64,000 nucleotides of DNA from Mucilaginibacter sp. JRF (GTDB taxonomy: Bacteria; Bacteroidota; Bacteroidia; Sphingobacteriales; Sphingobacteriaceae): NCBI RefSeq assembly GCF_015223065.1, contig NZ_JADFBY010000013.1, positions 1 to 64,000 on the forward strand, given 5' to 3'. The position numbers and the translations under genes are program-made. Within the stretch, counting starts at the first letter, position 1, and each line of letters begins with the position of its first letter. Positions 23,363 to 50,000 of the stretch are shown here, piece by piece. The notes under the pieces were generated by a model, which searched no databases, was not told where the DNA came from, and saw only the letters and a list, made by a program, of their open reading frames with translations.

Positions 23363-25528
23363 TTACTTTACGGTAAAGCTGGCTGCTAAAGCCTCATCAG
23401 CCGAGTTATTGCCGATGTTCAGGGTGTAAGTGCCCGGATACAGCTTCCATTTGTTAGCTTTCAGATCCCACTTTTGCAGATCGCTTACCGGTATTTTAAT
23501 GGTAGCGGTTTGCTGACCGCCTTTGGATACGGTTACACGCTTAAAGCCTTTTAACTCCTTTAGCGGCATACGCTCGCCTTGCGGATATTTGATGTAGGCC
23601 TGCACCACCTCGTCGCCATCCATAGCGCCGGTGTTGGTTACGTTGACCGATACGGTGATAGAATCCTTAGCACCGTAGCTTTTTTGTGGCTGCGCTTTCC
23701 AGTCGAACTTAAACGAGGTGTAGCTCATGCCAAAACCGAACGGATATTGCACCGGGCCGGTAAAGTAACGGTAGGTACGATCTTTCATGTTATAGTTATC
23801 ATACGCCGGCAGATCATTGATCGACTTATAGAAAGTTAACGGCAAGTGGCCTGATGGCGAATATTTACCGAATAATATATCGGCCAGGGCGTTACCACCC
23901 TGCTCGCCCGGATACCAGGCTAATATAATGGCATCAGCATAAGGCGCTATCTCAGCAATATCAACATCACTGCCCGATGTTACTACGGCAATAATAGGCT
24001 TGGTCACTTTTTTGCGCAGTTCCTTTAAAAAAGCGATGTTATCAGCCGGAAGGCTCAATGTTTTTTTATCGCCACCACTTTCAGACAGGAAGGCATCACC
24101 TGCCTCACCCTCCAATACCGGGGTTAAACCAACTACGGCTACTGTAACATCAGCATTACCTGCCGACCATATACCGCCAAAGTGCATAGTATCTTTATTA
24201 CCCGAACCCAGATCGTACTCAACTCGTGTAGCTGGACCAACCGCCGCGGTTATACCCTCCACAAAGTTCACCATGCGGCTGCTCACACCATGATAGTTAG
24301 CTACCAGCGCATCTAACGATGCCGCGCTCGAACCTACCACCATAATGCTTGAGTAATCCTGTTTGCTTAAAGGCAATATGTTCTTTTCGTTTTTAAGCAA
24401 TACCATACTTTGCAGTGCTGCCTTGCGGGCAAGGGCTACGTGGTAATCGTTATGCACACTATCGGCACCGTAACCGGCGTAAGGTGAGCTTGCGGCCTCA
24501 TCATAAAAACCCAATTTGAACTGCGTGCGCAAAATTTGCGAAAGCGATTGGTTCACCTCTTTCTCGGTGATCAGTTTCTTGTTGATGGCGTTCTCAATAT
24601 CGCTTTGGAAAATGCTTGAACAATCAAGGTTAGTACCCGCTTTTATAGCCGCTGCCGCTACCGATACCTTGTCGGGCAGTACCTTGTGCGTTAAATAAAT
24701 GTCATCCAACGCACCGCAGTCGGTAACCACGTGGCCTTTAAAGCCCCACTCGCCGCGCAGTATCTGGGTTATCAGTTTTTTATTGGTTGATGTTGGCACG
24801 CCGTTAACACGGTTATAGGCCGTCATTACCGATTCTACACCGGCATCAACCAGTTTATGGAAAGCGTACAGGTATGTTTCGCGCAGATCCTTTTCATCAA
24901 CCTTGGCATCAAAAAAGTCGCGCTGCGCTTCAGGGCCGCTGTGCACCGCAAAGTGTTTGGCCGTTGCTGATGTTTTAAGGTGAGCCGGATCATTACCCTG
25001 CATACCTTTAATATAGGCGCTGCCGATGGTACCTGTCAGGAACGGGTCTTCGCCATAAGTTTCCTGTCCGCGGCCCCAGCGTGGGTCACGAAATATATTA
25101 ATGTTGGGCGACCAAAAGGTTAAACCCATATACATCAAACGCCTGTTTTGCTTTGTCGACAAATTGTATTTAGCCCGAGCCTCGGTTGATATGGCGCTTG
25201 CCACCTCATTCACCAGCCCATCATTAAATGTTGCAGCCATAGCAATAGCCTGCGGAAAAACCGTAGCCTCGCCCGCCCTTGCCACACCGTGCAAGCTCTC
25301 GTTCCACCAGTTGTATGATGGTATGCCCAGGCGTTTAACTTCGGCACTGCGGTAACCCATCAGGGATGCTTTTTCGGGTAATGATAATTCGGAGATCAGC
25401 GCGTTCACACGGGTATTAACGGGCAAACTTTCGTCGCGAAATTTAGGCTTGTTTTGCCCCTTGCTGATAAAACTGCATGTACATGCCGCGGCTAACAGTA
25501 TGTACTTAATGTTTGGCTTAATTGTCAT
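23363..25528 (-). CDS. GH3 glycoside hydrolase, beta-xylosidase/glucosidase type
   Basis: 721 residues, exported: the signal runs to about residue 25 (an A-A-A-C could also serve as a lipobox). The domain order is the TIM-barrel, the alpha/beta sandwich and a C-terminal fibronectin-III-like domain. N-W-W-N-E-S-L-H-G-V-A-R and F-R-D-P-R-W-G-R-G-Q-E-T-Y-G-E-D-P are typical of the GH3 group that includes beta-xylosidases; Asp270 in V-V-T-D-C-G is the nucleophile. In this locus it could remove beta-1,2-xylose from plant N-glycans, but glucosidase activity is also possible. A LacI-type operator sits just before it. Confidence 0.9.
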   Translation of the reverse strand: MTIKPNIKYILLAAACTCSFISKGQNKPKFRDESLPVNTRVNALISELSLPEKASLMGYRSAEVKRLGIPSYNWWNESLHGVARAGEATVFPQAIAMAATFNDGLVNEVASAISTEARAKYNLSTKQNRRLMYMGLTFWSPNINIFRDPRWGRGQETYGEDPFLTGTIGSAYIKGMQGNDPAHLKTSATAKHFAVHSGPEAQRDFFDAKVDEKDLRETYLYAFHKLVDAGVESVMTAYNRVNGVPTSTNKKLITQILRGEWGFKGHVVTDCGALDDIYLTHKVLPDKVSVAAAAIKAGTNLDCSSIFQSDIENAINKKLITEKEVNQSLSQILRTQFKLGFYDEAASSPYAGYGADSVHNDYHVALARKAALQSMVLLKNEKNILPLSKQDYSSIMVVGSSAASLDALVANYHGVSSRMVNFVEGITAAVGPATRVEYDLGSGNKDTMHFGGIWSAGNADVTVAVVGLTPVLEGEAGDAFLSESGGDKKTLSLPADNIAFLKELRKKVTKPIIAVVTSGSDVDIAEIAPYADAIILAWYPGEQGGNALADILFGKYSPSGHLPLTFYKSINDLPAYDNYNMKDRTYRYFTGPVQYPFGFGMSYTSFKFDWKAQPQKSYGAKDSITVSVNVTNTGAMDGDEVVQAYIKYPQGERMPLKELKGFKRVTVSKGGQQTATIKIPVSDLQKWDLKANKWKLYPGTYTLNIGNNSADEALAASFTVK

Positions 25529-25541
25529 AGCTTAAAAAATT

Positions 25542-25557
25542 ATGCAATCGGTTGCAT
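25542..25557 (-). promoter_or_regulatory. LacI-family operator upstream of the GH3 gene
   Basis: ATGCAATCGGTTGCAT: 6-bp palindromic arms around a central CG, the hallmark of LacI-type sites, 13 bp before the GH3 ATG. It probably lets a sugar-responsive repressor control this gene. No lacI-type gene is in the window, so the regulator would act from elsewhere. Confidence 0.6.
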
Positions 25558-25646
25558 TGAGAATTACAAGAATATTAATAAATTTCGAAAAATAAATACA
25601 TTTTAAAATTTTAGTAAAAGTATTTGTGTTTTTATAAATATTTTAA

Positions 25647-25675: not shown

Positions 25676-25695
25676 GCACTATACTACAACTCTGT

Positions 25696-27525
25696 ATGAT
25701 GAATATCAAATCAATACTTACCGGTGTGGCATTAATGGCGGCAGCGTTGCAAACCAGCGCCCAATCCAAACACACCTTCGCGCTTGGCGACAGCACTTTT
25801 GTATTAGATGGCAAGCCATTCCAGATGATCTCGGGCGAGATGCACTGCGCACGTATCCCCAAAGAATACTGGCGCGACCGCATGAAGATGGCCAAGGCTA
25901 TGGGTCTGAACACCGTGGGCACCTACATATTCTGGAATGCCCATGAGGAAAAGCAAGGTAAGTATGATTTTAGCGGCAACAACAACATTGCCGAGTTTGT
26001 AAAAACCGCCCAGCAGGAAGGCATGTGGGTGGTATTACGCCCAAGCCCTTATGCCTGCGCCGAGTGGGAGTTTGGCGGTTACCCATCATGGTTATTAAAG
26101 GATAGCACCCTTAAAGTTCGCAGTAAAGACCCGCGCTTTATTGATGCCTACAAAAAGTATATAGCACAGTTGGCCAAACAACTGGTACCGCTGCAAATTA
26201 CGCATGGCGGCAATATATTAATGCTGCAGATAGAGAACGAGTACGGCTCATACAGTGATGATAAGAGCTATATGGACCTGAACAGAAAAATATTCAGGGA
26301 GGCCGGTTTTGATGGCATACTGTTTACCTGCGATGGTGCCGACCAAATGCCAAAAGGTTACCTGCCGGGCTATCTGCCCGCGGTAAATGGGTTGGATGAC
26401 CCTGCTGCGGTAAAGCAACTCATCAATAAATACCATAATAACAAAGGCCCATACTATATAGCCGAGTGGTACCCGGGCTGGTTTGATCACTGGGGCGAAA
26501 AACATGCCCATACCGATGCTACTGCCGACGCGGCCAAACTGGAGAAGATATTAGCGGCGGGCATATCCATCAATATGTATATGTTTCACGGTGGTACAAC
26601 ACGCGGGTTTATGAACGGTGCCAACATGAACCGTACCGAGCCTTATGCCCCACAGGTATCAAGCTATGATTATGATGCCCCGCTGGATGAATCAGGCAAC
26701 CCGACAGAAAAGTTCATCAAATTCCGCGAGGTGATAGCCAAACATCTGCCTGCCGGTAAACAACTGCCGCCTATCCCTGCTAAAAAAGCGGTGATGGCCA
26801 TTAACGATATTAAACTGACCGCCTACAGCAGCGTGTTCGATAACCTGCCAAAACCTGTCGAGGCCAAACAAACCATGACCTTTGAGGCCCTGGATCAGGC
26901 TTATGGTTTCCTGCTGTATCGTACCCTAATATCAAAAGGCGGTTTATTAAAGCTTGATGCCCTGCGAGATTATGCCCAGGTATACATCAACGGTAAAAAA
27001 ATAGTCGTGCTTGACCGCCGGTTAAAACAGGATAGCGTATTGCTTGAAAATATACCGGCCAACGCGGTGCTCGACATACTGACCGAGAACAACGGCCGCA
27101 TAAACTATGGCCCTTACTTAACCGATAATACCCACGGCATCACCAAACAGGTAACGCTTGCCGGCGAGGTGGTTAATAACTGGAAGATGTACCGCCTGCC
27201 GTTTGAGAGCCTTGCAGGATTTAAATTTTCGGCCAAAAATATAAGTAACGATCTGCCTGCACTGTACAAAGGCACATTTACTTTAAATATCGTTGCCGAT
27301 ACTTATTTGGATATGCGCCAGTTTGGTAAAGGCTTTGTATTTTTAAACGGCCATAACCTGGGCAAGTACTGGAACATTGGCCCGCAACAAACCATTTATA
27401 TACCATCGGTATGGCTTAAAAAAGGCAAAAATGAGATATGCGTTTTTGATCAGTTAAAAAATGGTCATACAACCATCAACTCGCTGGAAGCACCGATACT
27501 TGACCAAAACCCGGCAACCAAATAA
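25696..27525 (+). CDS. GH35 beta-galactosidase
   Basis: 609 residues, exported (signal peptide to S-A-Q). It removes terminal beta-linked galactose. The GH35 barrel has the acid/base Glu182 in Q-I-E-N-E-Y-G and nucleophile Glu257 in I-A-E-W-Y-P-G-W-F-D-H-W-G; G-E-M-H-C-A-R-I-P and G-G-Y-P-S-W-L are further family markers. C-terminal jelly-roll domains follow, ending F-L-N-G-H-N-L-G-K-Y-W-N. First of three co-directional genes (12-bp gap to GH20), consistent with trimming galactose before hexosamine. Two adjacent ATGs at 25696 and 25699 both fit. Confidence 0.93.
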   Translation: MMNIKSILTGVALMAAALQTSAQSKHTFALGDSTFVLDGKPFQMISGEMHCARIPKEYWRDRMKMAKAMGLNTVGTYIFWNAHEEKQGKYDFSGNNNIAEFVKTAQQEGMWVVLRPSPYACAEWEFGGYPSWLLKDSTLKVRSKDPRFIDAYKKYIAQLAKQLVPLQITHGGNILMLQIENEYGSYSDDKSYMDLNRKIFREAGFDGILFTCDGADQMPKGYLPGYLPAVNGLDDPAAVKQLINKYHNNKGPYYIAEWYPGWFDHWGEKHAHTDATADAAKLEKILAAGISINMYMFHGGTTRGFMNGANMNRTEPYAPQVSSYDYDAPLDESGNPTEKFIKFREVIAKHLPAGKQLPPIPAKKAVMAINDIKLTAYSSVFDNLPKPVEAKQTMTFEALDQAYGFLLYRTLISKGGLLKLDALRDYAQVYINGKKIVVLDRRLKQDSVLLENIPANAVLDILTENNGRINYGPYLTDNTHGITKQVTLAGEVVNNWKMYRLPFESLAGFKFSAKNISNDLPALYKGTFTLNIVADTYLDMRQFGKGFVFLNGHNLGKYWNIGPQQTIYIPSVWLKKGKNEICVFDQLKNGHTTINSLEAPILDQNPATK

Positions 27526-27537
27526 ATCAGCAGAATA

Positions 27538-29847
27538 ATGATAACCAGACAATCGAACTTAGTACTCGCGCTTGGCATTACCCTGCTTGGTATTTTGGCC
27601 GGGGGCAATAGTGTAAACGCTCAAACCACCGCGCCGCAGGTTAACCTTATACCCTATCCGCAATCGGTAGTTAAGGGTTTGGGGGTGTTCAGCATCAACA
27701 GCAAAACCCAAATAACATTGCCTGCCGGTAAAAAATACTTACAAGAGGCCGAGTTACTTAACGCGCTTATCACCAACGGATCGGGCAAGGCGCTTACTTA
27801 TGGCGCGGCATCGGCCAACGTAATTCAATTTGTTACCGATAATACCATTACTGCCGATGAAGGATATAAACTGAACATCAGCACGCAAAAGGTAACTTTG
27901 TCGGCTAAAACCGCTGCGGGTATATTCAGGGGTGTTGAAACCCTGCGCCAGTTACTGCCCGAAAGCGTTGAACAAACCGGTAAGAGCGGCGCATTAACCT
28001 TGCCTGTTGTACAAATTGCCGATCAGCCTGCTTATGCCTGGCGCGGCTTGCATCTGGATGTATCACGTCACTTTTTCTCTGTTGATTATCTGAAAAAGTA
28101 TATCGACCGCCTGGCTTTGTACAAATTCAACAAGCTGCACCTGCATTTAACGGATGATCAGGGTTGGCGCATCGAGATCAAGAAATACCCTAAGCTTACC
28201 GAATTTGGCGCGTGGAGAACCTTTAATAACCAGGATTCGGCATGTATCGAAAAATCAAAGGATAATCCTGATTTCGCTATCGACCCAAAACACATCATAA
28301 AGCGCGATGGCAAAACCCTTTACGGTGGTTTTTATACCCAGGCGCAAATGAAAGATGTGATAGCTTATGCTACAAAAAGACATATCGACATTATCCCCGA
28401 AATTGATATGCCGGGGCACATGATGGCGGCTATAAACAACTACCCTTTTCTATCGTGCGCGGGCGGCAGCAAGTGGGGCGAGCTTTTCACTACCCCGATA
28501 TGCCCATGCAGCGAAACTACTTATGAGTTTGCCGAGAATGTTTATAAAGAGATATTCGCCTTATTCCCGAGCAAATACATACATATTGGCGGTGATGAGG
28601 TTGACCGTACAAGCTGGGGCGAATCAGAAGCCTGCAAGGCCATGATGGCCAAAGAGGGCATTAAAACTTCTGCCGAACTGCAAAGTTACTTCATTAACCG
28701 CATGGAGAAATTCTTTAACAAGAATGGCAAAAAACTGATCGGTTGGGATGAGATATTGGAGGATGGTATCAGCTCTACCGCCGTGGTAATGTACTGGCGC
28801 AGCTGGGTGCCTAACGCGCCCATAAAGGCGGCCAAGAATGGCAACAAGGTGATCATGACACCGGGTGAACCGCTTTATTTTGATAATGATCCGGATCAGA
28901 ACTCGGTTTACAATGTTTACCATTTTAACCCCGTACCCAAGAAACTGAACAAGCAGGAAGCCGCGAATATAATAGGCGCGCAAGCCAACCTTTGGAGCGA
29001 ACGCATCCCCACAGAAAACCGTGCGGATTACATGGTATTCCCCCGTATGACGGCGCTTGCCGAAGTGTTATGGACCAACAAAAAGGATTATAAAGGTTAC
29101 CAGGAGCGATTATTAAAACAGTACCCTCGCCTGGATGCCATGCACGTTAACTACCGCCTGCCCGACTTTACCGAGCTGGTTGAAAGCAGCGTATTTACCG
29201 ATGAAACTACCCTGAGCGTAAATAAGCCATTAGCAGGTTTAAAGATATTTTATACTACCGATGGCTCACTACCTACGCAACAATCAACTGAGCTGACCGG
29301 TTCGTTAAAGATCACGCAATCGCAAAACATTCGTTTGGTTGCCTATACCGCATCGGGCATTCGCGGCGATTTGTATAACCTGAAATATGTAAAGCAAGCC
29401 CTTGCCGAACCAGTTAATAAAACCAGCTTACAGGCGGGCCTGGCGGTACGTTACTTCCCGGCGTTTTACAAAAAAACTACGCTGATACCTGATACGGCTA
29501 AAAATCAGGCCTTAACCGTTAGCACCGTTACCGTGCCTAAAGAGGCCACCGCGCCAAGTTTCGGCCTAAAATATAAGGGCTACGTTGATATCCCGACAGA
29601 TGGGGTTTATACCTTTTATTTAACGTGTGATGATGGCGGCGTGCTTAAAATAGCCGACCGACTGGTGGTTGATAACGAGGCCATGCACTCGGCTATTGAA
29701 AAAAGCGGACAGGTAGCTTTGAAAAAAGGCCTGCAACCTTTTGAGCTTAACTTTTTAGAAGGCGGCGGCGGTTACGCCCTTAAACTGCTTTATACTAAAG
29801 ATGGCTCAGCGCCTGCCGAAATACCGGCATCATGGTTAAAACATTAA
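27538..29847 (+). CDS. GH20 beta-N-acetylhexosaminidase
   Basis: 769 residues with a signal peptide to about N-A-Q. It releases terminal GlcNAc or GalNAc by substrate-assisted catalysis. An N-terminal GH20b domain precedes the barrel; the catalytic pair is Asp353-Glu354 in H-I-G-G-D-E-V, and H-L-H-L-T-D-D-Q-G-W and P-E-I-D-M-P-G-H are present. A chitobiase-C-like segment (Y-T-T-D-G-S-L-P-T) and then a C-terminal PA14-like domain (about 640-765, with V-Y-T-F-Y-L-T-C-D-D-G) follow, probably carbohydrate binding. It lies between GH35 and GH29 in one operon. Confidence 0.93.
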   Translation: MITRQSNLVLALGITLLGILAGGNSVNAQTTAPQVNLIPYPQSVVKGLGVFSINSKTQITLPAGKKYLQEAELLNALITNGSGKALTYGAASANVIQFVTDNTITADEGYKLNISTQKVTLSAKTAAGIFRGVETLRQLLPESVEQTGKSGALTLPVVQIADQPAYAWRGLHLDVSRHFFSVDYLKKYIDRLALYKFNKLHLHLTDDQGWRIEIKKYPKLTEFGAWRTFNNQDSACIEKSKDNPDFAIDPKHIIKRDGKTLYGGFYTQAQMKDVIAYATKRHIDIIPEIDMPGHMMAAINNYPFLSCAGGSKWGELFTTPICPCSETTYEFAENVYKEIFALFPSKYIHIGGDEVDRTSWGESEACKAMMAKEGIKTSAELQSYFINRMEKFFNKNGKKLIGWDEILEDGISSTAVVMYWRSWVPNAPIKAAKNGNKVIMTPGEPLYFDNDPDQNSVYNVYHFNPVPKKLNKQEAANIIGAQANLWSERIPTENRADYMVFPRMTALAEVLWTNKKDYKGYQERLLKQYPRLDAMHVNYRLPDFTELVESSVFTDETTLSVNKPLAGLKIFYTTDGSLPTQQSTELTGSLKITQSQNIRLVAYTASGIRGDLYNLKYVKQALAEPVNKTSLQAGLAVRYFPAFYKKTTLIPDTAKNQALTVSTVTVPKEATAPSFGLKYKGYVDIPTDGVYTFYLTCDDGGVLKIADRLVVDNEAMHSAIEKSGQVALKKGLQPFELNFLEGGGGYALKLLYTKDGSAPAEIPASWLKH

Positions 29848-29874
29848 TTGAACTTTTTTATATCGATACACGAA

Positions 29875-31980
29875 ATGAAAAAAATAGCCCTTGCCTCTCT
29901 CCTGCTGCAAAGCGCTTTGGCCTTTGCTCAGCCTGCGCCTAAGCCTTATGGTGCAACGCCATCGGCAGCACAGCTTAACTGGCACAAGTTGGAGATGTAT
30001 TGCATAATACACTATGGTGTTGATACTTACACCGATAAGGAATGGGGTTTTGGCGATGAAGACCCGAAGCTGATCAACCCGGCGAAGTTTGATGCCGCGC
30101 AGATAGTACAGGCGGCTAAGGATGGCGGCTTTAAGGGCATAATTGTAGTTGCTAAGCACCATGACGGCTTGTGCCTATGGCCTACCAAAACCACCGAGCA
30201 CAACATCACCAAGGCCACCTGGAAAAACGGCAAGGGCGATATGGTGAAAGAATACCAATTGGCTTGCGAAAAACTGGGCATGCAGTTAGGCTTGTACTGC
30301 TCGCCGTGGGACAGGAACAATGCCTTTTACGGCAAACCTGAGTATCTGAACATATACCAGCAACAGTTACGTGAACTATATAGCAACTACGGCAAATTAT
30401 TCATATCATGGCATGATGGTGCCAATGGTGGCGACGGCTACTACGGCGGCGCTAACGAGGCACGCAAAATTGACCGCACTACTTATTATGATTGGACGAA
30501 TACCTGGGCCATTACCCGTAAAATGCAGCCCGGCGCAACCTTGTTTGGCGATGTTGGGCCTGATGTACGCTGGGTAGGTAACGAGGAAGGTCACGCGGGC
30601 GAAACCAGTTGGGCAACCTATACACCCAAAGCATCGCAACCCGGCAAGGAGCCTGCTAACGGCGAGGTAATGTATGAATTAGGCATTGAGGGCACTCGTG
30701 GTGGCAAATACTGGATGCCTGCGGAGTGTGATGTACCTTTCCGTCCGGGATGGTTTTACCATGCTAGTCAGGATGGAATGGCTAAATCGCCATATACCCT
30801 CCTTGATCTGTATTACAAAAGTGTTGGCCGTGGCGCGGCGCTGGATCTGGGTTTATCGCCCAATCGTGATGGGGTGATAGATGCAGATGATGTGGCCAAG
30901 CTGAAAGCCTTTGGTGAACTATTGAAGCAAACCTTCGCTGTTAATTTGGCAAAGGATGCTACAATAACGGCCAGCAATATCCGCGGCAAAAACAGTAAAC
31001 TGTACGGCACCAAATTTTTGACAGATAACGACAATTTCTCGTACTGGGCTACAGATGATAAGGTAAATACTCCAACGCTTACCCTGAGCTTTAAAAAGTC
31101 GGTTAGCTTTAACGTGATTCAACTGCGCGAGAATATCAAGTTAGGTCAGCGCATTGAGGAAGTTGCTGTTGACGCTTACCAAAACGGCGAGTGGAAACAG
31201 GTAGCTAACGCCACAAGCATCGGCTCAAAACGCTTGATACGCTTACCGCAAAACATTACAGCAAGCCAAGTAAGGTTACGCATTGTAAAATCGCCGGTTA
31301 GCATTGCGCTGAGCGATTTTGGCTTGTATAAAGAGCCTGTACATGTAACCGCTCCCGCCATCAGCAAAAGCCGCAGCGGCGAGGTTACCATCAGTACCGA
31401 TGCACCTGTATCAAACATATATTATACATTAGATGGCAGTACGCCAACCAAGGCATCAACCCCATACAGCAAGCCATTTGTATTGACTGACGGAGGCATT
31501 GTTAAAGCTATTGCTGTTGATGGCAACCAAACCAGCGAAGCAGCCAATGTAAAATTCGGCCTGAATAAAGAGAACTGGAAACTGCTGAATGCCGCCAATA
31601 ACGAAGCTGCACAGGCTATTGACGAAAACTATCGCTCAGTATGGAGCACTTTACAGAAGGATACTTCGGCAGCATTTAAACCGACTGAACTGGCTGTAGA
31701 TATGGGCGGGGCACCAACCATCAGCACGTTTACTTACCTGCCTCGTCAGGATAAGAAAACCGAAGGTATTGTTGATCGCTATACCTTTTACGTGAGCGAT
31801 AACGGTACCGACTGGAAAGAAGCCGCCAAAGGCGAATTTTCAAACATCAAGGCCCACCCTGTTGAGCAGGAGATCAAGTTGAATGCACCAATAAAAGCAA
31901 GATATTTTAAGTTCCGGGCCGATCACGTGATCAGCGGGAATGGAGTAGCGGTTGCCGAGATCGGCGTTCGCTCAAAATAG
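29875..31980 (+). CDS. GH29 alpha-L-fucosidase with C-terminal binding domains
   Basis: 701 residues, signal peptide MKKIALASLL to A-F-A-Q; ATG 29875 is chosen over an in-frame TTG at 29848. The GH29 barrel has H-H-D-G at 95-98 and a probable nucleophile Asp181 in S-W-H-D-G-A-N-G-G, resembling the B subfamily that cleaves alpha-1,3/1,4-linked fucose of Lewis structures. A coagulation-factor-5/8-like region (about 350-470), a chitobiase-C-like segment (Y-Y-T-L-D-G-S-T-P-T) and a second discoidin-like end follow. It closes the plus-strand operon, and its stop abuts that of the convergent DoxX-like gene with one base between. Confidence 0.9.
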   Translation: MKKIALASLLLQSALAFAQPAPKPYGATPSAAQLNWHKLEMYCIIHYGVDTYTDKEWGFGDEDPKLINPAKFDAAQIVQAAKDGGFKGIIVVAKHHDGLCLWPTKTTEHNITKATWKNGKGDMVKEYQLACEKLGMQLGLYCSPWDRNNAFYGKPEYLNIYQQQLRELYSNYGKLFISWHDGANGGDGYYGGANEARKIDRTTYYDWTNTWAITRKMQPGATLFGDVGPDVRWVGNEEGHAGETSWATYTPKASQPGKEPANGEVMYELGIEGTRGGKYWMPAECDVPFRPGWFYHASQDGMAKSPYTLLDLYYKSVGRGAALDLGLSPNRDGVIDADDVAKLKAFGELLKQTFAVNLAKDATITASNIRGKNSKLYGTKFLTDNDNFSYWATDDKVNTPTLTLSFKKSVSFNVIQLRENIKLGQRIEEVAVDAYQNGEWKQVANATSIGSKRLIRLPQNITASQVRLRIVKSPVSIALSDFGLYKEPVHVTAPAISKSRSGEVTISTDAPVSNIYYTLDGSTPTKASTPYSKPFVLTDGGIVKAIAVDGNQTSEAANVKFGLNKENWKLLNAANNEAAQAIDENYRSVWSTLQKDTSAAFKPTELAVDMGGAPTISTFTYLPRQDKKTEGIVDRYTFYVSDNGTDWKEAAKGEFSNIKAHPVEQEIKLNAPIKARYFKFRADHVISGNGVAVAEIGVRSK

Positions 31981-31981: not shown

Positions 31982-32812
31982 TCAGGATGTGATCACACTT
32001 TTTTGTGCGCCGTGTACAGTTTTGGTATGCGGCGCGCAAATAAACCATAAGGCCAATAAAACGCCGTAACTTCCTCCCCTTTCTATCCACTCAAAAGCGG
32101 CGTATTGCGGGTATAAAAGCTCGGTAGCTACCTTCCATATAAAGAATACCAGCAGCAGCGTACGGTTCGGTCGAACCAAAATAAATACCGCCGCGGCTAT
32201 TTCAACAATGCCGTTCACCAAAGCCACATTTTCAGCCTGACGAAAGCCCAGTGCATTGTACTGTGCTATCAATCCCTTTTTATGCAGCAGATTTAACCAG
32301 CCATGCCCCGTAAGCAGCAAAAATGCAGCTATACGCAAAGCCGATTGCACCAACTGCAAACGGGCAGCAGTAACAGATACCGGCTGCTTCATCTTACTAA
32401 ATAATGATTTAACAGACGGCTCAAATCCGCACAATAAAAGTAGGGCTAATGGAGCGCCGTAGTTACCGGCACGTTCAATCATCTCGGCAAAGGGCTCGCC
32501 GGATAGCGGACGTAGGGAAGCTGTCATTACACCCCATAACACCAGCCAAAGGGCTATGGCACGGGTTGGGTATATCAATATACTGATACCCATTAAAATA
32601 TCAATGGTGCCCACAACAGGCATTAGTTTATAGGCCAAAGCCTCGCCAATGCCAAAAACGGCAAAATAATTACACCAAATGGGCTTGGTTATAATGCCAA
32701 ATGCGCCATGGCCAATAAAACACATGGCCACAGCGCATTGCAGTATAATATATACCGGCTTTACAGCATCAGTATTTAAAGCAGGTTTAAATATGTTTGC
32801 CCTTAGCGGCAT
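31982..32812 (-). CDS. DoxX-like membrane protein with internal duplication
   Basis: 276 residues, about eight membrane segments. The two halves are alike: each has a G-H-G motif (C-F-I-G-H-G-A and L-L-T-G-H-G-W), a long helix with P-T-R-A or P-N-R-T, and the ending I-E-R-A-G-N-Y-G-A-P-L-A-L or I-E-R-G-G-S-Y-G-V-L-L-A-L. This looks like a tandem fusion of two four-helix DoxX units. The function of DoxX proteins is poorly known (quinone-linked or redox roles have been proposed). It is the last gene of the long PUL operon, 15 bp after GH92, so it may serve sugar uptake or export. Confidence 0.7.
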   Translation of the reverse strand: MPLRANIFKPALNTDAVKPVYIILQCAVAMCFIGHGAFGIITKPIWCNYFAVFGIGEALAYKLMPVVGTIDILMGISILIYPTRAIALWLVLWGVMTASLRPLSGEPFAEMIERAGNYGAPLALLLLCGFEPSVKSLFSKMKQPVSVTAARLQLVQSALRIAAFLLLTGHGWLNLLHKKGLIAQYNALGFRQAENVALVNGIVEIAAAVFILVRPNRTLLLVFFIWKVATELLYPQYAAFEWIERGGSYGVLLALWFICAPHTKTVHGAQKSVITS

Positions 32813-41856: not shown

Positions 41857-44800
41857 TAGTACTTATAAAATTGCAATGGCCCTTCAGCCGTACCTACAAC
41901 CAAATATTTATCCTTACCGGCTTTCACTTCTATGGCCGATTTTACATCACCTGTTACTGATAAACCCGACTCCGGCTGTGGCACATAGGTGAACTTGCCC
42001 TTGCCATCGCCTTTTAACAGCGTGCCGTAACCGGCATCCATGCTGCCAAATTTCAGGCGATTATCAGAATGATTGCCCAGTAACAGTATGTCGGTATGTT
42101 TATCGTTATCAAAATCGCCGGTAATAATTTTTGTGGTTACCGTAAACTGAGCCTGTGTTGGCAAAGTAGTTACCTCAAACTTGCCGGCGTTATTTATAAA
42201 GCAGGTAGTTTCGGTTGTATTGATACTAAGTATACCAGCCTTAGCTAATTCATCAGCGTTGAATATCTCTTTAATGGTAGCATCCGAATAAGCACTGTAC
42301 GATGCAAAACGGCGGCGCATCGGGTATATCTGCTCGTTCAATTCATCACGACTAACAAACGGATAGCTTTTGCCCTGCACATAAAAATTCAGGAACGGAT
42401 CTATCGAGCCATTGCCATCAAAATCGGCATAGTATAATTCGGCCGGTTGCTTATCAGTAGCGTGCAGCGCCGAATTTAGGCCCATATTGCCGGCTATAAT
42501 ATCGGGTTTGCCATCCGCGTTAACGTCTGCTACGCTTAAAGACATCCATATGCCTTTTTGAGGGGTGGCGAAGTAATCGGCTGTTTTATCAACAAAACCA
42601 TCTTTGGTATTCAGGTATACCATTATCGGCATAAACTCACCGCAAACAACCAGGTCGGCACGTTTATCATTATTCAGGTCGACCCATTGCGCATCAGTCA
42701 CCATGCCCGGTTTAACTGTTGATGCAATGGTGAATTTGCCCTGACCATCATTCAGCAGCCAAAAGCTCTCCGGCGCTGTAGGGTATTTGCCCGGTATTAC
42801 TCTACCGCCAACAAACAGGTCAAGGTCGCCATCATTATCATAATCAAACGGACGAACGCACGATTTACTGTTTGCCCCCGTTTGTGATGGCAAAGCGGTT
42901 GGTGCCCAGGTAAAGTTGCCCTTACCATCGTTTATATAAAGTTCATCCTCAAGGTTACCGGTGTTGGCTTCGTAAGTAGCATAGCCGCCTTTGCCCAAAT
43001 ACAGATCAGGGAATTTATCGCCATTGGCATCAAAAAACGCGGCTGCTGCTACCGTACCTATGTTTTGATCGTTCCCGCGCTTAAGTTCGGTTTCCTTAAA
43101 GGTTCCTCCTTGTTGTTGCAGGTAAACTTTACCTACGGTAGTGTTATCGGCACTGCTGATGTAAATATCCTGCAAGCCATCGCCATTAACATCGGCTGTT
43201 ATCATTACCGGCGATGTTTTGGAGTACATGAACATCATCAGTAACTGGCGTTTAAAATCATTAATGGCCAATGCCTGCTGATTAAAATCGATAAGCGGCT
43301 TTTGTTTTGTGAAGATCGTTTTGGCGACAGCAACCTGCTCCTTAAATGGCACCGTAGCATCCTGCTCAACCTGCAAACGCTGGTTAACCGTTGGGTTGCT
43401 GATTACCTGCACCATTTGATCGGGCCAGATAATTTTTAGCGAATCAATCTTTTTAGCATCACCCAAACCAAAATTAAGTATGGTTGATGTACTGCTTAAA
43501 TATCCCCGGTTCGGGTTTACTTCCTGGTATTGTGTACCGGTTTGTGAATACAGGTAAACCTTTGCCCCTACCGCGTTCGAATTTGGCTTTTTGCCATTTA
43601 ACTTAATGGCGATGTAATTGTTATTGGCCGGGCTGCGGGTGTTCTCGTAAATTGACGCAGGCTGATTGATATTGTTTACGATCAGATCCAGATCACCATC
43701 ATTATCCAGATCAGCATATACGGCACCGCTTGATATGGTCGATTCCGTTAAGCCCCATTCGGTTTGCTTGTTGCTGAATGTAAGGTTATGATTATTGCTG
43801 AATACGTAATTGGGCAATTTGGTTGACGGCATAGCCTTGATCAGATCCATCAGCAGGAATGGCTCCTTGCTCATGGCTTTCTTGATCTTGTAATCGCCCC
43901 AGTAACGTAAAAAATCCTTGTTGGTGTAATCGCGCAGGTAACCGTTGCTTATAAAGATGTCCTTGTAACCATCATTATCAAAATCGGCTATCAGGGGGCA
44001 CCAGCTCCAGTCGGTAGCGGCTACGCCGGCCATGTTGGCTATTTCGCTGAACGTGCCATCGCCATTGTTTAGCTGTAGCATGTTGCGCATATATTGTTTG
44101 TAGAGATCCTGCTTAAGCATCAGCTCAAACGACTCATAATTTTCTTCAAGTTGTAATGATTTTTGCCTGTGGTTATCCTCGGGCAACATATCAAGAGTCA
44201 GGATGTCGGGCAGGCCATCGTTATTATAGTCGGCAATATCAACCCCCATCGAGAAATGCGACAAATGCCTCAGCATTTTCTTTGACGCATCGGTAAATGT
44301 TTTGTTGTGGTTGTTCAGGTAAACGTAGTCGGGCTCGTTGTAATCGTTGGTAACGTATACATCCTGCCAGCCGTCCTTGTTTATATCGGCAATGGCTATA
44401 CCCAAACCAAAGGTGAGCGGATTTTGAAAGATGCCCGCCTTATTAGTAACATCAGTAAACTTATTGTTATTATTCTCAAACAGTTTATTGCCCGCCAGCA
44501 TATCCGTTTCGTTTTTGTAACGGGCCAGCTCCATATTATCAATTTTTTTGATGTTATGGTTCAGCAAAAACATGTCGAGGTCGCCATCGTTGTCGTAATC
44601 AAAAAACGCGGCTTGTGTGCTGTAACCCGGGTCGTCAAGGCCGTAAACGGCTGCTTCTTCCTTAAACTTGTTATTCCCCTGGTTGATGAATAGTTGATTG
44701 CGGCGCTGGTCGTTTTCAACCTTGCCCGAGTAGCAAACGTAAATATCTAAAAGACCATCACCATTAACATCGGCCATGGTAACGCCTGTTTTCCATGAGC

Positions 44801-45149
44801 CTGAACGACCGGCTAATTCCTTGCTGGCCTCTTTGGTAATATCCTTAAATTTTAGTCCGCCTAAATTTAGGTACAGTTTGTTGGGCTGCATGTTGGCGGT
44901 AAACATCAGGTCTATCAACCCATCATTGTTGATATCGCCCGCGGCTACGCCTGCACCGTTGTAAAAGTATTCGTACGAGAGTACGTTGAGAGATTCCGTT
45001 TCGTTTATCGCGTTGGCAAAGGTGATGCCTGTTTGTTTCGCATCAAGCTGCCTGAACAGCGGTTGCTGCGCAAGCGAAACATTTTGTACTGCAAATGCCG
45101 CCGTAACACACAAAGCGAACGATCTCAAGCCGACATTGATAAACTGCAT
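41856..45149 (-). CDS. FG-GAP/VCBS repeat protein with ASPIC-UnbV domain
   Basis: 1097 residues, signal peptide to S-L-A-Q. Many D-x-[ND]-x-D-G calcium-binding turns (for example A-G-D-I-N-N-D-G-L-I-D, D-Y-D-N-D-G-D-L-D, D-V-N-G-D-G-L-Q-D) build an integrin-alpha-like propeller, repeated twice. Near residues 510-590 is an ASPIC/UnbV module (N-A-V-G-A-K-V-Y-L-Y and I-W-P-D-Q). Such CRTAC1-like proteins often sit beside SusC/SusD and haloperoxidase-like genes in Bacteroidota, but their job is not established; glycan or protein binding at the surface is likely. It follows susD after a strong hairpin terminator and is coupled to the haloperoxidase gene. Confidence 0.88.
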   Translation of the reverse strand: MQFINVGLRSFALCVTAAFAVQNVSLAQQPLFRQLDAKQTGITFANAINETESLNVLSYEYFYNGAGVAAGDINNDGLIDLMFTANMQPNKLYLNLGGLKFKDITKEASKELAGRSGSWKTGVTMADVNGDGLLDIYVCYSGKVENDQRRNQLFINQGNNKFKEEAAVYGLDDPGYSTQAAFFDYDNDGDLDMFLLNHNIKKIDNMELARYKNETDMLAGNKLFENNNNKFTDVTNKAGIFQNPLTFGLGIAIADINKDGWQDVYVTNDYNEPDYVYLNNHNKTFTDASKKMLRHLSHFSMGVDIADYNNDGLPDILTLDMLPEDNHRQKSLQLEENYESFELMLKQDLYKQYMRNMLQLNNGDGTFSEIANMAGVAATDWSWCPLIADFDNDGYKDIFISNGYLRDYTNKDFLRYWGDYKIKKAMSKEPFLLMDLIKAMPSTKLPNYVFSNNHNLTFSNKQTEWGLTESTISSGAVYADLDNDGDLDLIVNNINQPASIYENTRSPANNNYIAIKLNGKKPNSNAVGAKVYLYSQTGTQYQEVNPNRGYLSSTSTILNFGLGDAKKIDSLKIIWPDQMVQVISNPTVNQRLQVEQDATVPFKEQVAVAKTIFTKQKPLIDFNQQALAINDFKRQLLMMFMYSKTSPVMITADVNGDGLQDIYISSADNTTVGKVYLQQQGGTFKETELKRGNDQNIGTVAAAAFFDANGDKFPDLYLGKGGYATYEANTGNLEDELYINDGKGNFTWAPTALPSQTGANSKSCVRPFDYDNDGDLDLFVGGRVIPGKYPTAPESFWLLNDGQGKFTIASTVKPGMVTDAQWVDLNNDKRADLVVCGEFMPIMVYLNTKDGFVDKTADYFATPQKGIWMSLSVADVNADGKPDIIAGNMGLNSALHATDKQPAELYYADFDGNGSIDPFLNFYVQGKSYPFVSRDELNEQIYPMRRRFASYSAYSDATIKEIFNADELAKAGILSINTTETTCFINNAGKFEVTTLPTQAQFTVTTKIITGDFDNDKHTDILLLGNHSDNRLKFGSMDAGYGTLLKGDGKGKFTYVPQPESGLSVTGDVKSAIEVKAGKDKYLVVGTAEGPLQFYKY

Positions 45150-45237: not shown

Positions 45238-46836
45238 TTATTGTACATCCCACCAAACGCGAGTGTTGAAGTTATCAGCACCTTGGCTTGCAACAGCTGC
45301 CTGATAGTTGGCGCCGTTGGTTTGTGTTAATGTAACAGGATAAGGCATCCTGCGTGGTGTAGTTGTGCTATACTGACCTACGTAAGTTGGAGCAGTAATA
45401 ACAGGGAAACCTGACCTACGGTAGTTAGCGAACGTTTCGTTAAAGTTGAACGTAGCTGATGTATGTACATAGTACTCCATGTTAATTTGCTCTAACGCTG
45501 TAGCCGGTACTAACGGGTGAGCAGCAATGTAAGTAGTTATATCACCACCATCAACCACTGCAACTGTACCTGAACTGTTCATTTGCGATAAAGTAAGCAT
45601 GTTTGCTCTAAGCGCGTTAGCCCAGTGAGTAGCTGCAACACCTGTATTCCAACCGCGTGAAGCTGCTTCAGCCAACAATAGTTCAGACTCACCGTAAGTT
45701 AATACGATGTTAGCACCGCTACGGTCATCATAAACCAATAAACGAGGGCGTGAGTATCTGCCAAGCGGTGCCGGAGCATCGCCATCACCGTTAGCCGGAG
45801 TTGCGCCAGGATAACCTGTAGCTGTTGAGATATCACGGTTGCCACCTAACAGGTCATAACCATTTGGCATACCTACTTGTGATGCAAAGGTGCTGATACC
45901 TGGTCTGGTACGGTCCTCATTAAGTAATTTACCGTTACCGTTAGTGATCTCGGCAATGGCTGATACACGAGGGTCATTGTTCGCTTTCATATAATCGATC
46001 AATGTTTTACCCCAACGTACTTCGCGGAAATCGTCAGCAACTAATAAAGCCGCTGCGTTATCATTACCGTTACCGTTCGCGTTATCGGCATAAGTTTTAG
46101 CGTTATCAGTAATAGCACTCATGGTACCACCTGCATAAGCTTTTTCAGCCCACTCACGTGCTTCAGTAGCGTTAACTTTGGTCATACGCATAGCTACTTT
46201 AAGCATTAGGGTGTAGCCTAACTTTTTCCAACGCGCTACATCGCCACCGTAAAATAAATCGGCAGTTGGGCCTGCTTTAGTAGCATCTAAAGCAGCTGTA
46301 GCGGTTTCAAGCTGGCTAAGCATAGCGGCATATATATCCTCTTGCTGGTCAAACACCGGAGTGAATATACCGTTTTTAGCCTGGCCTTCCTGTGAGTAAG
46401 GCACATCACCGTAAAGGTCGGTTACGCGTTGTATAAATAACACACGTAATATAGTACCACAGGCATCAAGGTTGCTCAAATCAGCGTTACCTGCAACCAG
46501 GTTCTTCATCTCATCAACCAATGTTAAAGCCTGGTAGCCTCTGTTCCAGGTACGGTTGTAGTAACCAATACCGCTGCCACCTAATACATATTTATCACCG
46601 TTGCTGTAATAGCTGAATGTTGATGCCAGTGATTGAGTCCACATACTTTGGAAAAGTAGTTGATCGTAACCGGTTTGCGAAAAGGTGAACTGCGCCTGCG
46701 ATAAAAGGTAATTAGGATTGAATAGATCTCCTGATACCGCGTTAGGGTTAGTGTTAACCTCGTCGAAGTTCTTGGTACATCCGGCCATGAAAGTAGCACC
46801 TGCAAGCAGGAAGCCTAATATATATTTCTTCTTCAT
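45238..46836 (-). CDS. SusD-like surface glycan-binding lipoprotein
   Basis: 532 residues, lipoprotein signal with the lipobox Cys in F-M-A-G-C. SusD/RagB proteins sit on top of the SusC barrel as a lid and capture oligosaccharides. The sequence fits the SusD-like_2 group (F-D-E-V-N-T-N-P-N near the start, T-D-L-Y-G-D-V-P-Y-S, N-E-T-F-A-N-Y-R-R-S-G-F-P near the end). It starts 5 bp after susC, so they are co-transcribed, and a strong terminator follows. Confidence 0.93.
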   Translation of the reverse strand: MKKKYILGFLLAGATFMAGCTKNFDEVNTNPNAVSGDLFNPNYLLSQAQFTFSQTGYDQLLFQSMWTQSLASTFSYYSNGDKYVLGGSGIGYYNRTWNRGYQALTLVDEMKNLVAGNADLSNLDACGTILRVLFIQRVTDLYGDVPYSQEGQAKNGIFTPVFDQQEDIYAAMLSQLETATAALDATKAGPTADLFYGGDVARWKKLGYTLMLKVAMRMTKVNATEAREWAEKAYAGGTMSAITDNAKTYADNANGNGNDNAAALLVADDFREVRWGKTLIDYMKANNDPRVSAIAEITNGNGKLLNEDRTRPGISTFASQVGMPNGYDLLGGNRDISTATGYPGATPANGDGDAPAPLGRYSRPRLLVYDDRSGANIVLTYGESELLLAEAASRGWNTGVAATHWANALRANMLTLSQMNSSGTVAVVDGGDITTYIAAHPLVPATALEQINMEYYVHTSATFNFNETFANYRRSGFPVITAPTYVGQYSTTTPRRMPYPVTLTQTNGANYQAAVASQGADNFNTRVWWDVQ

Positions 46837-46841: not shown

Positions 46842-49800
46842 TTAGTTTTTAAGTTTTAAGTTCAGGTTAAGACCATAAGTGCGGGTGAAAGGTAAGCTTG
46901 TACCTTCGATACCTGCATAGTTAATAGTGTTTGAGAAACCTGACTCAGGGTCAATATTATCAGTATGCTTCATGATGGTCCACAAGTTACGAGCTACGAA
47001 TGACACGTTGATGCCACCGAATGGAGTGCGTGCCAAAGCTTTGCTCGGAATGTTGTAACCTAAAGTTACCTGACGAAGTTTGATAAAGCTGCCATCAAGC
47101 ACGTTTAATGATGATATACGGCGAGCTAACTCCTGGTAGTAAGTTTGCGCGTCAGGGCTTGCAGTATTTGCAGCACCACTTGCAGTTACACCATCAACAG
47201 TTACACCACCTTCACGACCTTCAAGCGTCATTTGGTTCAAACCACGGAAGATACTGTAGTAGTTAGTTGCTGAAAGCACTTTGTTACCAAAGCGGTAATC
47301 AACCAGGAATGATAAACTGAATTGTTTGTAGTTAAAGTTGTTATTGAAACCACCGTAAAGGTTTGGTAATGCTGAACCCATTGGGGTAAGCGCACCTTGT
47401 AGTGGAATACCGTTAGCGTCAACAATGATTTGGCCGCTTGCAGTACGCTGATAATCGTAAGCTAATATTTGCGGACCAGCTAAACCAACAACAAGCGCGG
47501 TGCTCGCGTTAAGCGGACGGTAAGTACCGAAGTTAATGTTTGCGTTAGTTACACCATCTGTTTGAAGTATCTTGTTCTTAACATAAGTTAAGTTGAATGA
47601 CGGAGTCCAGCTGAATGATTCAGTACGAACCGGAGTACCGTGCAATTCTAACTCGATACCTCTGTTTTGAGTTGAACCTGTACCAATGTACCTGTTAGTG
47701 TAACCTGATGATTGGTCAATAGTACTGTTGATGATCTCGTTAGTTGTTTTACGTGAGAAAACAGACAAGTCGAAACCTAAACGGTCACCAAAGAATTTCA
47801 TCTCTAAACCAGCCTCAAGCTCTTTCAGGGTGAAAGGTTTCAGGAACAAGTTTGGTAATTGAGAGCTGAAACCACCAGTAGGAGTACCATTGATAGCGTT
47901 GTTCACGTTATAGTAAACCTGGTTAGTGTATGGGTTAGCCGCACCACTGCTTTGCGCGAATGATAAACGTACTTTACCAAAATCAACATTCTGCATTTTC
48001 CACAGATCAGAGAAGATAAAGCTACCTGATACTGATGGCGTGAAGATACCACGACCTACCTCTGATGAGATACTGCTGTATGTATCGTAACGACCGGTAG
48101 TACCGATAACGATGTAATCTTTAATTGAGAAATCTGCTGAGTAGTAAGCTGAGTTAACGTTTTGCTTAGTGTAAGCGTCAATTGGGTTGGCGTTACGGCT
48201 TGCAAAGTTTTTCAAGCTGTAGAAGTAAGGGATAATGAAACCACCGTTACCGCTGATGAATGTACCAGTGTAGCTGCTTTTACGGATGTTACCACCTACT
48301 GACATATCTACACGTAAGAAATCCTTAACAATGTCATGACGACCGTTGATCAAGATATCCGCGTTCAACTCATCTGTCTGATAGTTAGTTTGAGTCATGG
48401 TACCATTATCATTACGATAAGCTGTTCCTGTTGGCTCAATGCCTATACGCTCGTCATTAATGTTATCATAACCTAAACGAGCCTGTGCTGATAACCAGTT
48501 AGTAAAGCTATATTTAGCAGTAACCGCTGATATTAAGCGTTTTCTGTAAACATTATTAACAAAGTTATTGGCTGCAAAGTATGGGTTAGTTACATAAACG
48601 TCATTTGTAAATGTTTGCTCTCTGCCTGATGCCAAAGTACCTGGTGAAAGGATGCTCTGATCCTGGTTTGGAGCCAGAAAGGTTACGTTGTTCGGGTTAC
48701 CCGGACCATCGCTCAAGCCTGAACGGTTTTTACTTTTCTCGTAAACGTAGTTGGCCATTAACGATACCTCAAGTTTTGAAGTAACTGACTGCATACCGTT
48801 AAAGTTGAATGTTTTACGATCAAGGTAGCTGTTAGGTACAATTGAGTTAGCGCGCATGTTTGAACCTGATAAGCGGAAGCTACCAGTTTCGCCACCGCCT
48901 GAGAATGTAGCAGTGTTAGTAGTTGTAGGCGCGGTACGGTAAAAATCAAGGTAATTGTTTACCGGTGAGTAAGCATAGCTGTTACCGTCAAACTGAATTA
49001 CTTGCGAACCATCCATTTTAGCACCCCAAGCTAAGTTACCTGAAGCTAATGCCCCATCAGCAGTAGTTGGTTTTAAACCATTTTGACCCTGACCGTATAC
49101 ATTTTGGAAGTCAGTATTGTCAACCGGTTTATCTAATTGTACGTTGCTGTTTATTTCAACACCAAAGCCAGCATTCTTTTTACCGGTTTTAGTAGTGATC
49201 ACAATTACACCACCGCTTGCACGTGTACCATATAGTGCAGATGCTGACTGGCCTTTAAGTACAGTGATGCTCTCGATATCATCAGGGTTGATGTTTGAGA
49301 TACCATCACCATAATCGGCACCGCCCCACTCACCTGATGAACCACGTTGCGTGTTATCAATAGGCACACCATTAATAACGTATAATGGGCCGTTAGTTGA
49401 GAAGCTGGTTAAACCACGTAATAAAACGCGGGCTGATGAACCCGGACCACCTGCTGACTGGCCAATGCTCACACCGGCAACACGGCCAGATAGTGATGAC
49501 ATAACGTTAGTTTCGCGGGCTTTGTTAAAGTTATCGCTGTTTACTGTAGTTACAGCGTAACCAAGGGTACGTTGTTCTTTTTTGATACCTAACGCTGTTA
49601 CAACAACCTCTTTAAGGTCTGTTTGCGCTGGTTGTAAGGTTACGTTAATTACAGTTTTACCTGCAACCGCTACTTCTTGAGTAGTATAACCTATAAATGA
49701 GAAAACCAATGTACCGTTATCGGGCGCATTGATAGAGAATTTACCTGTAGCATCGGTAACTGTACCAGCGCTTGAGCCTTTAACGGCTACTGATACACCC

Positions 49801-50000
49801 GGAAGGGGAGCGCCGTTTTCGTCAACTACCTTACCGGTAACCGCTACTGGAGCTACTGCTTTAATTGATACCGGCGCCGCAACAACAGTGTTGTTAAAAT
49901 TGGTAGCGGCCACGGCTAACATAGAGAACTTAAAAATTAATGAGGCTTTTTTTAGCCAGTACTTATCCCTTACACCCGATGGATGTTCAAAATATTTCAT
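46842..50000 (-). CDS. SusC/RagA-type TonB-dependent outer membrane transporter
   Basis: 1052 residues. A long signal region (to about A-A-P, residue 43) is followed by a carboxypeptidase-regulatory domain (54-115, starting V-T-G-K-V-V-D-E-N-G-A-P-L-P-G-V), a TonB box (K-E-V-V-V-T-A-L-G-I), a plug (130-250, ending G-G-V-I-V-I-T-T-K-T-G) and a 22-strand barrel ending in L-N-L-N-L-K-L-K-N. It imports oligosaccharides across the outer membrane with TonB energy, together with SusD downstream. The plug lacks the long STN extension seen in transporters paired with an anti-sigma factor, fitting the absence of such genes here. Confidence 0.94.
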   Translation of the reverse strand: MKYFEHPSGVRDKYWLKKASLIFKFSMLAVAATNFNNTVVAAPVSIKAVAPVAVTGKVVDENGAPLPGVSVAVKGSSAGTVTDATGKFSINAPDNGTLVFSFIGYTTQEVAVAGKTVINVTLQPAQTDLKEVVVTALGIKKEQRTLGYAVTTVNSDNFNKARETNVMSSLSGRVAGVSIGQSAGGPGSSARVLLRGLTSFSTNGPLYVINGVPIDNTQRGSSGEWGGADYGDGISNINPDDIESITVLKGQSASALYGTRASGGVIVITTKTGKKNAGFGVEINSNVQLDKPVDNTDFQNVYGQGQNGLKPTTADGALASGNLAWGAKMDGSQVIQFDGNSYAYSPVNNYLDFYRTAPTTTNTATFSGGGETGSFRLSGSNMRANSIVPNSYLDRKTFNFNGMQSVTSKLEVSLMANYVYEKSKNRSGLSDGPGNPNNVTFLAPNQDQSILSPGTLASGREQTFTNDVYVTNPYFAANNFVNNVYRKRLISAVTAKYSFTNWLSAQARLGYDNINDERIGIEPTGTAYRNDNGTMTQTNYQTDELNADILINGRHDIVKDFLRVDMSVGGNIRKSSYTGTFISGNGGFIIPYFYSLKNFASRNANPIDAYTKQNVNSAYYSADFSIKDYIVIGTTGRYDTYSSISSEVGRGIFTPSVSGSFIFSDLWKMQNVDFGKVRLSFAQSSGAANPYTNQVYYNVNNAINGTPTGGFSSQLPNLFLKPFTLKELEAGLEMKFFGDRLGFDLSVFSRKTTNEIINSTIDQSSGYTNRYIGTGSTQNRGIELELHGTPVRTESFSWTPSFNLTYVKNKILQTDGVTNANINFGTYRPLNASTALVVGLAGPQILAYDYQRTASGQIIVDANGIPLQGALTPMGSALPNLYGGFNNNFNYKQFSLSFLVDYRFGNKVLSATNYYSIFRGLNQMTLEGREGGVTVDGVTASGAANTASPDAQTYYQELARRISSLNVLDGSFIKLRQVTLGYNIPSKALARTPFGGINVSFVARNLWTIMKHTDNIDPESGFSNTINYAGIEGTSLPFTRTYGLNLNLKLKN

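Follow-up and report, generated by a model that had tools for sequence, protein, structure and literature searches.

In the 64,000-nucleotide (nt) stretch of Mucilaginibacter sp. JRF DNA analyzed here (the window), positions 23363-50000 contain a polysaccharide utilization locus (PUL) that, in our view, probably serves the breakdown of complex N-glycans, most likely of the plant type, imported as glycopeptides or as free glycans. The locus has the three parts of a PUL, namely a SusC/SusD pair, glycan-degrading enzymes and a local regulator, and its glycoside hydrolase (GH) families together account for galactose (Gal), antennary and core fucose, N-acetylglucosamine (GlcNAc), mannose (Man) and xylose, the composition expected for a plant complex N-glycan. 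It is this enzyme set that makes the plant type likely. The genome is 4.91 Mb in size and 99.9% complete.

SusC, SusD and the seven glycoside hydrolases are intact open reading frames (ORFs) with scores well above the Pfam cut-offs, and short catalytic motifs, from sets that we take to be those of the respective families, are present in all seven hydrolases. On the plus strand, three genes spaced by 12 and 0 nt form one unit: a GH35 β-galactosidase (25696..27525; Pfam GH35, 364 bits), a GH20 β-N-acetylhexosaminidase with a PA14 domain (27538..29847; Pfam GH20, 389 bits; motif GGDEV) and a GH29 of the α-1,3/4-fucosidase type with an F5/8 domain (29848..31980; assigned by Pfam; the probable true start is the ATG at 29875). 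The minus strand carries a longer unit, with -11 to 88 nt between neighboring genes, in the order SusC, SusD, ASPIC, haloperoxidase, ROK, GH29, GH2, GH92 and DoxX. It comprises a SusC-like TonB-dependent transporter (46842..50000; Pfam CarbopepD_reg_2 and Plug), a SusD-like surface lipoprotein (45238..46836; Pfam SusD-like_2, 208 bits) with a clear lipobox at residue 20, a GH29 α-L-fucosidase (37823..39271; Pfam, 334 bits), a mannosidase-type GH2 with an Ig_GlcNase domain (35130..37799; assigned by Pfam; nucleophile motif FNSEVGS), which is a candidate endo-β-mannosidase of subfamily GH2_17, a GH92 α-mannosidase (32828..35080; Pfam, 628 bits) and four genes described further below. A predicted β-xylosidase of family GH3 (23363..25528, minus strand; Pfam GH3 N, C and Fn3-like domains; motifs TDCGALDD and EGEAGD) stands alone and diverges from GH35, with 167 nt between them. 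The hydrolases have signal-peptide-like N-termini, as judged by eye. The preliminary description of this DNA had placed the seven hydrolases beside SusC/SusD, and the Pfam matches and motifs confirm this. It had also noted the absence of PNGase, endo-β-N-acetylglucosaminidase (ENGase) and protease genes, and the Pfam scan of the 13 genes in 23363-50000 likewise gave no match to such a family. Its gene list was correct for the genes it named and left out the DoxX-like, ROK, haloperoxidase-like and FG-GAP/ASPIC genes.

Comparison with solved structures suggested the type of each hydrolase. The best matches of GH92 were 6f8z (BT3130) and 7ZGM, the plant-N-glycan α-1,3-mannosidase of B. massiliensis. 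The window enzyme reads YAHGNEPSHH as these two do; the α-1,2 enzymes 2wvy and 2wzs, presumably BT2199 and BT3990, read YAHGNQP..H, and by this motif alone the GH92 is of the α-1,3 type. The closest solved relatives of GH3 were the xylan 1,4-β-xylosidases 7vc7/7vc6, with moderate scores, in agreement with its earlier description as xylosidase-type; from its sequence group and its co-location we propose that it is the core β-1,2-xylosidase. For GH35 the best match was the β-galactosidase 8fa5 (560 bits), and its relatives among solved structures are β-galactosidases, which do not distinguish β-1,3 from β-1,4 specificity; the enzyme is proposed to act on antennary β-1,3-Gal, and the GH20 on antennary GlcNAc. 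The GH29 at 29848 matched 8ayr best (671 bits), followed by 5k9h, 4zrx and 3ues, named α-1,3/4-fucosidase, and Lewis-a fucose is its proposed target. The GH29 at 37823 was closest to other members of the family, 9eu1 and 6gn6, and its relatives lie near or adjoin GH3 in loci L121, L123, L124, L130, L137 and L138; we propose core α-1,3-fucose as its substrate.

The type of the GH2 can be read from two diagnostic positions. According to PMC12243196, glucosaminidases show SD together with Glu in loop 2, and the loop-2 residue is Trp in the mannosidase subfamilies GH2_13 and GH2_17. The window enzyme has an NE acid/base motif and the loop-2 Trp, as do all of the 33 aligned sequences, itself included; by contrast, CsxA carries SD and Glu. 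Assignment as a GH2_16 exo-β-glucosaminidase was therefore rejected, and the resemblance to the plant mannosidase that had been noticed at the outset was upheld at these positions, with the proviso that the signature is common to GH2_13 and GH2_17. Among solved structures CsxA was nevertheless the best match, with 237 bits over the full length, and β-mannosidases scored 163 bits or less. Because this full-length match beats every β-mannosidase, GH2_17 is the likelier subfamily for the window GH2, by exclusion only. A structure predicted from a 17-row alignment had a mean predicted local distance difference test score of 64; its barrel was poorly built, and no use was made of the model.

The co-location of these genes is conserved in the genus. 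An orthologue of the GH2, with 61-73% identity, was found in 41 of 60 Mucilaginibacter genomes, and 40-kb regions around it were read for 32 of the 41. Partner clusters in these regions were GH29A (21), GH92 (21), GH3 (19), GH20 (17), GH29B (16), SusD (15), ASPIC (13) and haloperoxidase (13); at least five of the eight occurred in 21 regions, and one or two in 2 regions. Gene order varies widely among the 32 regions, so shared synteny alone does not account for the co-location. GH35 was present in three regions (G002, G036 and G048), each time adjoining GH20, and these clusters add GH125, a CBM9 protein, a second GH20 and a glucosamine-6-phosphate isomerase/PIG-L protein; the additions were recognized as orthologue clusters, and their Pfam identities come from the G036 copies. 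GH125 adjoins GH2 in G060 too. In G044, G224 and G340, GH2 and GH3 are on separate contigs or more than 100 kb from each other. A survey of 395 genomes of the phylum, scoring at most two candidates per genome, found GH3 (at least 63% identity) in 7, GH2 (at least 56%) in 14 and both in 6; all six belong to one genus and include the own genome, so this survey adds little independent evidence.

Neighborhoods of GH3 outside the genus point in the same direction. A genome scan with the GH3 alignment, of which the best 80 loci of a longer list were kept, gave 31 loci with identities of 55-95% and 49 with 45-51%; the nearest named relative among the best loci listed was Mucilaginibacter roseus LMG 28454 (95% identity of the GH3 protein). 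In the 22 kb fetched from that strain, six genes of the locus had counterparts with 88-97% identity. Eleven of the 31 nearer loci are titled Mucilaginibacter, 13 are named after a different genus, family or order, and the labels of 7 are broader. We counted as partner a homologue of GH92, GH2, GH29 or GH20 with at least 44% identity over at least 60% of the query in the fetched flanks, a criterion chosen after seeing the data table. Such partners occurred at 7 of the 13 loci titled as other taxa and at none of the 49 distant ones (Fisher p = 3.5e-6), and at 9 of the 20 loci not titled Mucilaginibacter (Fisher p = 3e-6 against the same 49). Identity thresholds of 40, 44 and 50% gave 9, 9 and 8 of 20, with 0 of 49 each time, and at 50% also 6 of 13. 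In these statistics loci that are related do not count as independent, and of the 49 distant stretches 23 are shorter than 20 kb. In other taxa the nearer GH3 group is co-located with GH29, GH92, GH2, GH125 and NagB-type genes: Pinibacter aurantiacus (L121) has SusC, SusD, ROK, GH29, GH3, GH29B, GH20 and GH92; Paraflavisolibacter caeni (L124) has GH125, two GH92, GH29, GH3, CBM9 and NagB; L130 has GH3, GH92, GH2, GH29 and SusC; Gaoshiqia (L136) has GH3, NagB, GH125 and GH2; and Thermophagus (L137) has CBM9, GH29, ROK and GH3. G617 and L123 are apparently one record and were counted once. G413 was left out since an antisense ORF displaced its GH2 in ORF calling, and labels in other regions of high guanine-cytosine content may suffer likewise.

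The idea of a stepwise breakdown of a complex, possibly plant-type N-glycan, already put forward in the preliminary description, is thus supported by the GH92 motif, the GH2 residues, the co-location in the genus and the GH3 neighbors. We infer the individual linkages, the order of action, the uptake of glycopeptides and the endo mode of the GH2, as follows. SusC/SusD would import the glycan or glycopeptide. The plus-strand unit is read as the antenna set because GH35, GH20 and GH29 match the three sugars of the Lewis-a antenna: the GH29 at 29848 would take off Lewis-a fucose, GH35 would then take β-1,3-galactose, and GH20 antennary GlcNAc. The minus-strand unit would match the glycan core. 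GH92 would remove α-1,3-mannose, and GH3 β-1,2-xylose, after which GH2 may cleave Man-β-1,4-GlcNAc to give Man-α-1,6-Man and GlcNAc2, or GlcNAc2-peptide. The ROK regulator may sense a GlcNAc-type product.

How the glycan is released bears on this scheme. It had been claimed that the glycan must be freed elsewhere; none of the 13 genes scanned at the locus matches a PNGase or ENGase family, but the genome has an EndoH/F1-like GH18, and the release step would be needless if the GH2 is endo-acting, because a glycopeptide-bound glycan could be trimmed without PNGase. Two GH18 matches were found in the genome. One is a fusion of deacetylase, GH18 and glycosyltransferase (1114 residues). The other (441 residues; contig 1, L109:7734-9059) has a lipoprotein-like start, the motif DGIDFDDE and a sub-threshold EndoS-barrel match, and adjoins GH76. 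We take it to look like EndoH/EndoF1, enzymes that serve high-mannose rather than core-fucosylated plant glycans, and it is a candidate ENGase for high-mannose glycans. Plant glycans would then either be trimmed while still attached to imported glycopeptides, or be set free by an enzyme other than those recognized here. PNGase-F-type genes occur elsewhere in G036 and G048 (L106 and L107), with open frames of 555 and 574 residues; the GH2 clusters of both genomes hold GH35 and GH125.

The related claim that the enzyme set covers every sugar held for the sugar types, all of which have a family, and fell short at two linkages: Man-α-1,6-Man would need GH125, which is encoded on another contig, and no enzyme is assigned to cleavage of the chitobiose. 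For the remnant Man-α-1,6-Man-β-1,4-GlcNAc2, PMC9522356 reports no enzyme acting on the α-1,6-mannose and names GH2 and GH130 for the β-mannose. The single GH125 of the own genome lies on contig 7 (L264), between GH92 and GH76. Contrary to the no-enzyme statement, Xanthomonas reportedly uses GH125 for α-1,6-mannose. About 3 kb from the contig 7 GH92 there is a 276-residue protein whose match to PNGase F-II is limited to the N-terminal domain (34 bits, above cut-off), and this neighborhood also holds an outer-membrane barrel protein.

Within the N-glycan reading, the mode of the GH2 is a sub-question, and two answers were considered. Tentatively, and in our view with less than an even chance, a secreted bacterial GH2 endo-β-mannosidase may cleave between Man and the chitobiose core on imported glycopeptides, so that plant N-glycans could be harvested without PNGase or ENGase. 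The window enzyme shares the loop-2 Trp and the NE acid/base with the plant endo-β-mannosidase of GH2_17 (EC 3.2.1.152), whose substrate is drawn as Man-α-1,6-Man-β-1,4-GlcNAc-β-1,4-GlcNAc (PMC12243196); it is bacterial and, by eye, apparently secreted, and is a candidate for endo activity. The same paper gives three characterized GH2_17 members, all of them plant enzymes; the bacteria, which make up most of the subfamily, contribute none, and most bacterial members are predicted to be secreted. If the endo mode is true, a bacterial enzyme would bypass the removal of α-1,6-mannose, the step that has no enzyme in PMC9522356. An ordinary exo-β-mannosidase, acting after GH125 has stripped the α-1,6-mannose, is an answer that overlaps with the N-glycan reading and to which we would give less than an even chance. 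The Trp signature is common to exo GH2_13 and endo GH2_17, GH125 lies near or adjoins GH2 in G002, G036, G048, G060 and L136 and occurs once in the own genome, and NixH, the Xanthomonas GH2 that may act in this way, has β-mannosidase activity (PMC5958218). On the other hand, the precedence of CsxA over the β-mannosidases along the whole length fits a separate subfamily, and GH125 is not among the 13 genes scanned at the window locus.

Substrates other than plant N-glycans were also weighed. Some invertebrate, algal or fungal N-glycans carry xylose or core α-1,3-fucose, and the same kind of locus could serve these, with plants not the main source; GH92, GH2, GH29 and GH20 would suit any complex N-glycan, and GH35 occurs in only 3 of the 32 genus regions, compared with 16 for GH29B and 17 for GH20. 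Core α-1,3-fucose is, moreover, common to insect and plant glycans (PMC9522356). We regard this alternative as unlikely, as the plant structure is the best fit for the tight unit of GH35, GH20 and α-1,3/4-type GH29 combined with a xylosidase-type GH3. Plant cell-wall glycans (xylan, arabinogalactan or fucosylated xyloglucan), whose xylan or glucan fragments GH3 would attack, are a very improbable target. Xyloglucan loci also have GH3, GH35 and fucosidase, and the closest solved GH3s are xylan β-xylosidases; however, it is hard to see what part GH92, the mannosidase-type GH2 and GH20 would play in such a locus, no endo-xylanase, xyloglucanase or GH31 is among the 13 genes scanned, and the neighbors of the GH3 group are GH92, GH29, GH2, GH125 and NagB.

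Several observations weigh against the assignment to plant N-glycans. PF09113 (PNGase) had no match in the own genome, though the search matched 2 of 61 genus genomes, and PF12222 (PNGase) matched none of 60, the own genome included; a type II PNGase tolerant of core α-1,3-fucose was thus not found with these two families, GH85 and other amidase families lying outside the search. Presence of PNGase in the genome, tried as support for the GH3 group, failed (8 of 31 nearer versus 4 of 19 distant searched, p = 1; with the genus left out, 7 of 18 versus 4 of 19, p = 0.30). None of the eight partners lies around the GH2 orthologue in 9 of the 32 genus regions, and 11 of the 20 GH3 loci not titled Mucilaginibacter have no partner in the fetched flanks. 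A second GH2 of the same genome, about 32% identical, also carries Trp and NE, and hence the signature is not unique to the locus enzyme. The subfamily of the GH2 was judged by comparison with solved structures. Support for the substrate comes from sequences and gene neighborhoods throughout.

The remaining genes of the locus are all on the minus strand. Next to GH92 lies a DoxX-like membrane protein (31982..32812; Pfam DoxX_3, E 2e-4, below the family cut-off). The ROK-family regulator (39261..40484; Pfam ROK, 159 bits) is NagC-like; its nearest models were NagC (NCBIfam, 199 bits; cut-off 650) and Mlc, with scores well under both cut-offs. Before it in the unit lie a PAP2-fold homologue of vanadium-dependent haloperoxidases (40510..41856) and an FG-GAP repeat/ASPIC-UnbV protein (41856..45149; Pfam FG-GAP_3, 294 bits in 9 stretches; UnbV_ASPIC, 83 bits). 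Outside the locus, an AMP-binding, acyl-CoA-synthetase-like enzyme (50815-52731) lies divergent, 814 nt upstream of SusC, and at 9841-15741 there is a 1966-residue protein in which a carboxypeptidase-regulatory domain and a TonB-receptor plug accompany α-2-macroglobulin domains.

The PAP2 gene product matched the vanadium-dependent haloperoxidase 4cit with 349 bits, and K323, R330, S357, G358, H359, R409 and H415 all align to identical residues, the set and numbering being those we take to define the vanadate site. The 4cit enzyme is presumably from Zobellia and prefers iodide. A paper on a Zobellia vanadium iodoperoxidase is cited in the literature, and no report of a haloperoxidase in glycan loci was among the literature matches listed. 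Unlike 4cit, the gene here sits within a SusC-SusD-ASPIC-haloperoxidase unit of an N-glycan locus. Of the 15 genus regions with the SusD cluster, 13 have ASPIC and haloperoxidase directly after SusC-SusD; of the two exceptions, SusD is cut by the region edge in G002, and ASPIC is not visible in G060. Haloperoxidase homologues were found in 47 of 295 genomes of the class (E at most 1e-30). An ASPIC homologue was in the fetched stretch of 16 of 20 chosen loci (not L249, L254, L260 or L261), and SusC/SusD-like genes, several with weak scores, lay just upstream in 8 of the 16 (L244, L245, L250, L251, L253, L259, L262 and L263). The last of these is a second such unit in the own genome, on contig 4, where the two further genes scanned encode an aldehyde dehydrogenase and an ACT/HAD protein, neither of them a glycoside hydrolase; the pair is therefore not tied to N-glycans as such. 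As guesses, the homologue may oxidize halides against competitors or host oxidants, or be a phosphatase. The unit raises the question of why an enzyme of the halide-oxidizing type stands beside glycan transporters.

Large amounts of plant N-glycans, which can be allergenic, are difficult to obtain, and few enzymes have been shown to act on them (PMC9522356). A full candidate enzyme set in a single locus, with GH2 orthologues in the genus for comparison, is of value in this respect, and the GH2 bears on whether bacteria have endo-β-mannosidase activity, which is characterized from plants alone according to PMC12243196. Among the matches listed for Mucilaginibacter N-glycan and soil Bacteroidota literature, none dealt by title with this locus. 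The system of B. massiliensis (PMC9522356) is alike in having a GH92 α-1,3-mannosidase, a GH3 β-1,2-xylosidase, a GH29 core fucosidase, antennary GH29s, GH20 and SusC/D, and its logical order of action is the same as that proposed here; its genes, however, are spread over several loci, its GH2 takes galactose, and a type II PNGase performs the release. In contrast, the genome studied here has one locus, with GH35 and a GH2 of the mannosidase type, and neither of the PNGase families searched gave a match. The N-glycan genes of Xanthomonas campestris (Dupoiron 2015) reportedly form one cluster, nixE-nixL, with GH3 and additionally GH125 for α-1,6-mannose. That cluster is proteobacterial and was set beside the present locus by description; it is not known to hold a haloperoxidase/ASPIC pair. 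N-glycan loci are already known, and what is new in the Mucilaginibacter locus is that its genes stand together and include GH35 and a candidate bacterial endo-β-mannosidase, where B. massiliensis employs a GH2 galactosidase and a PNGase.

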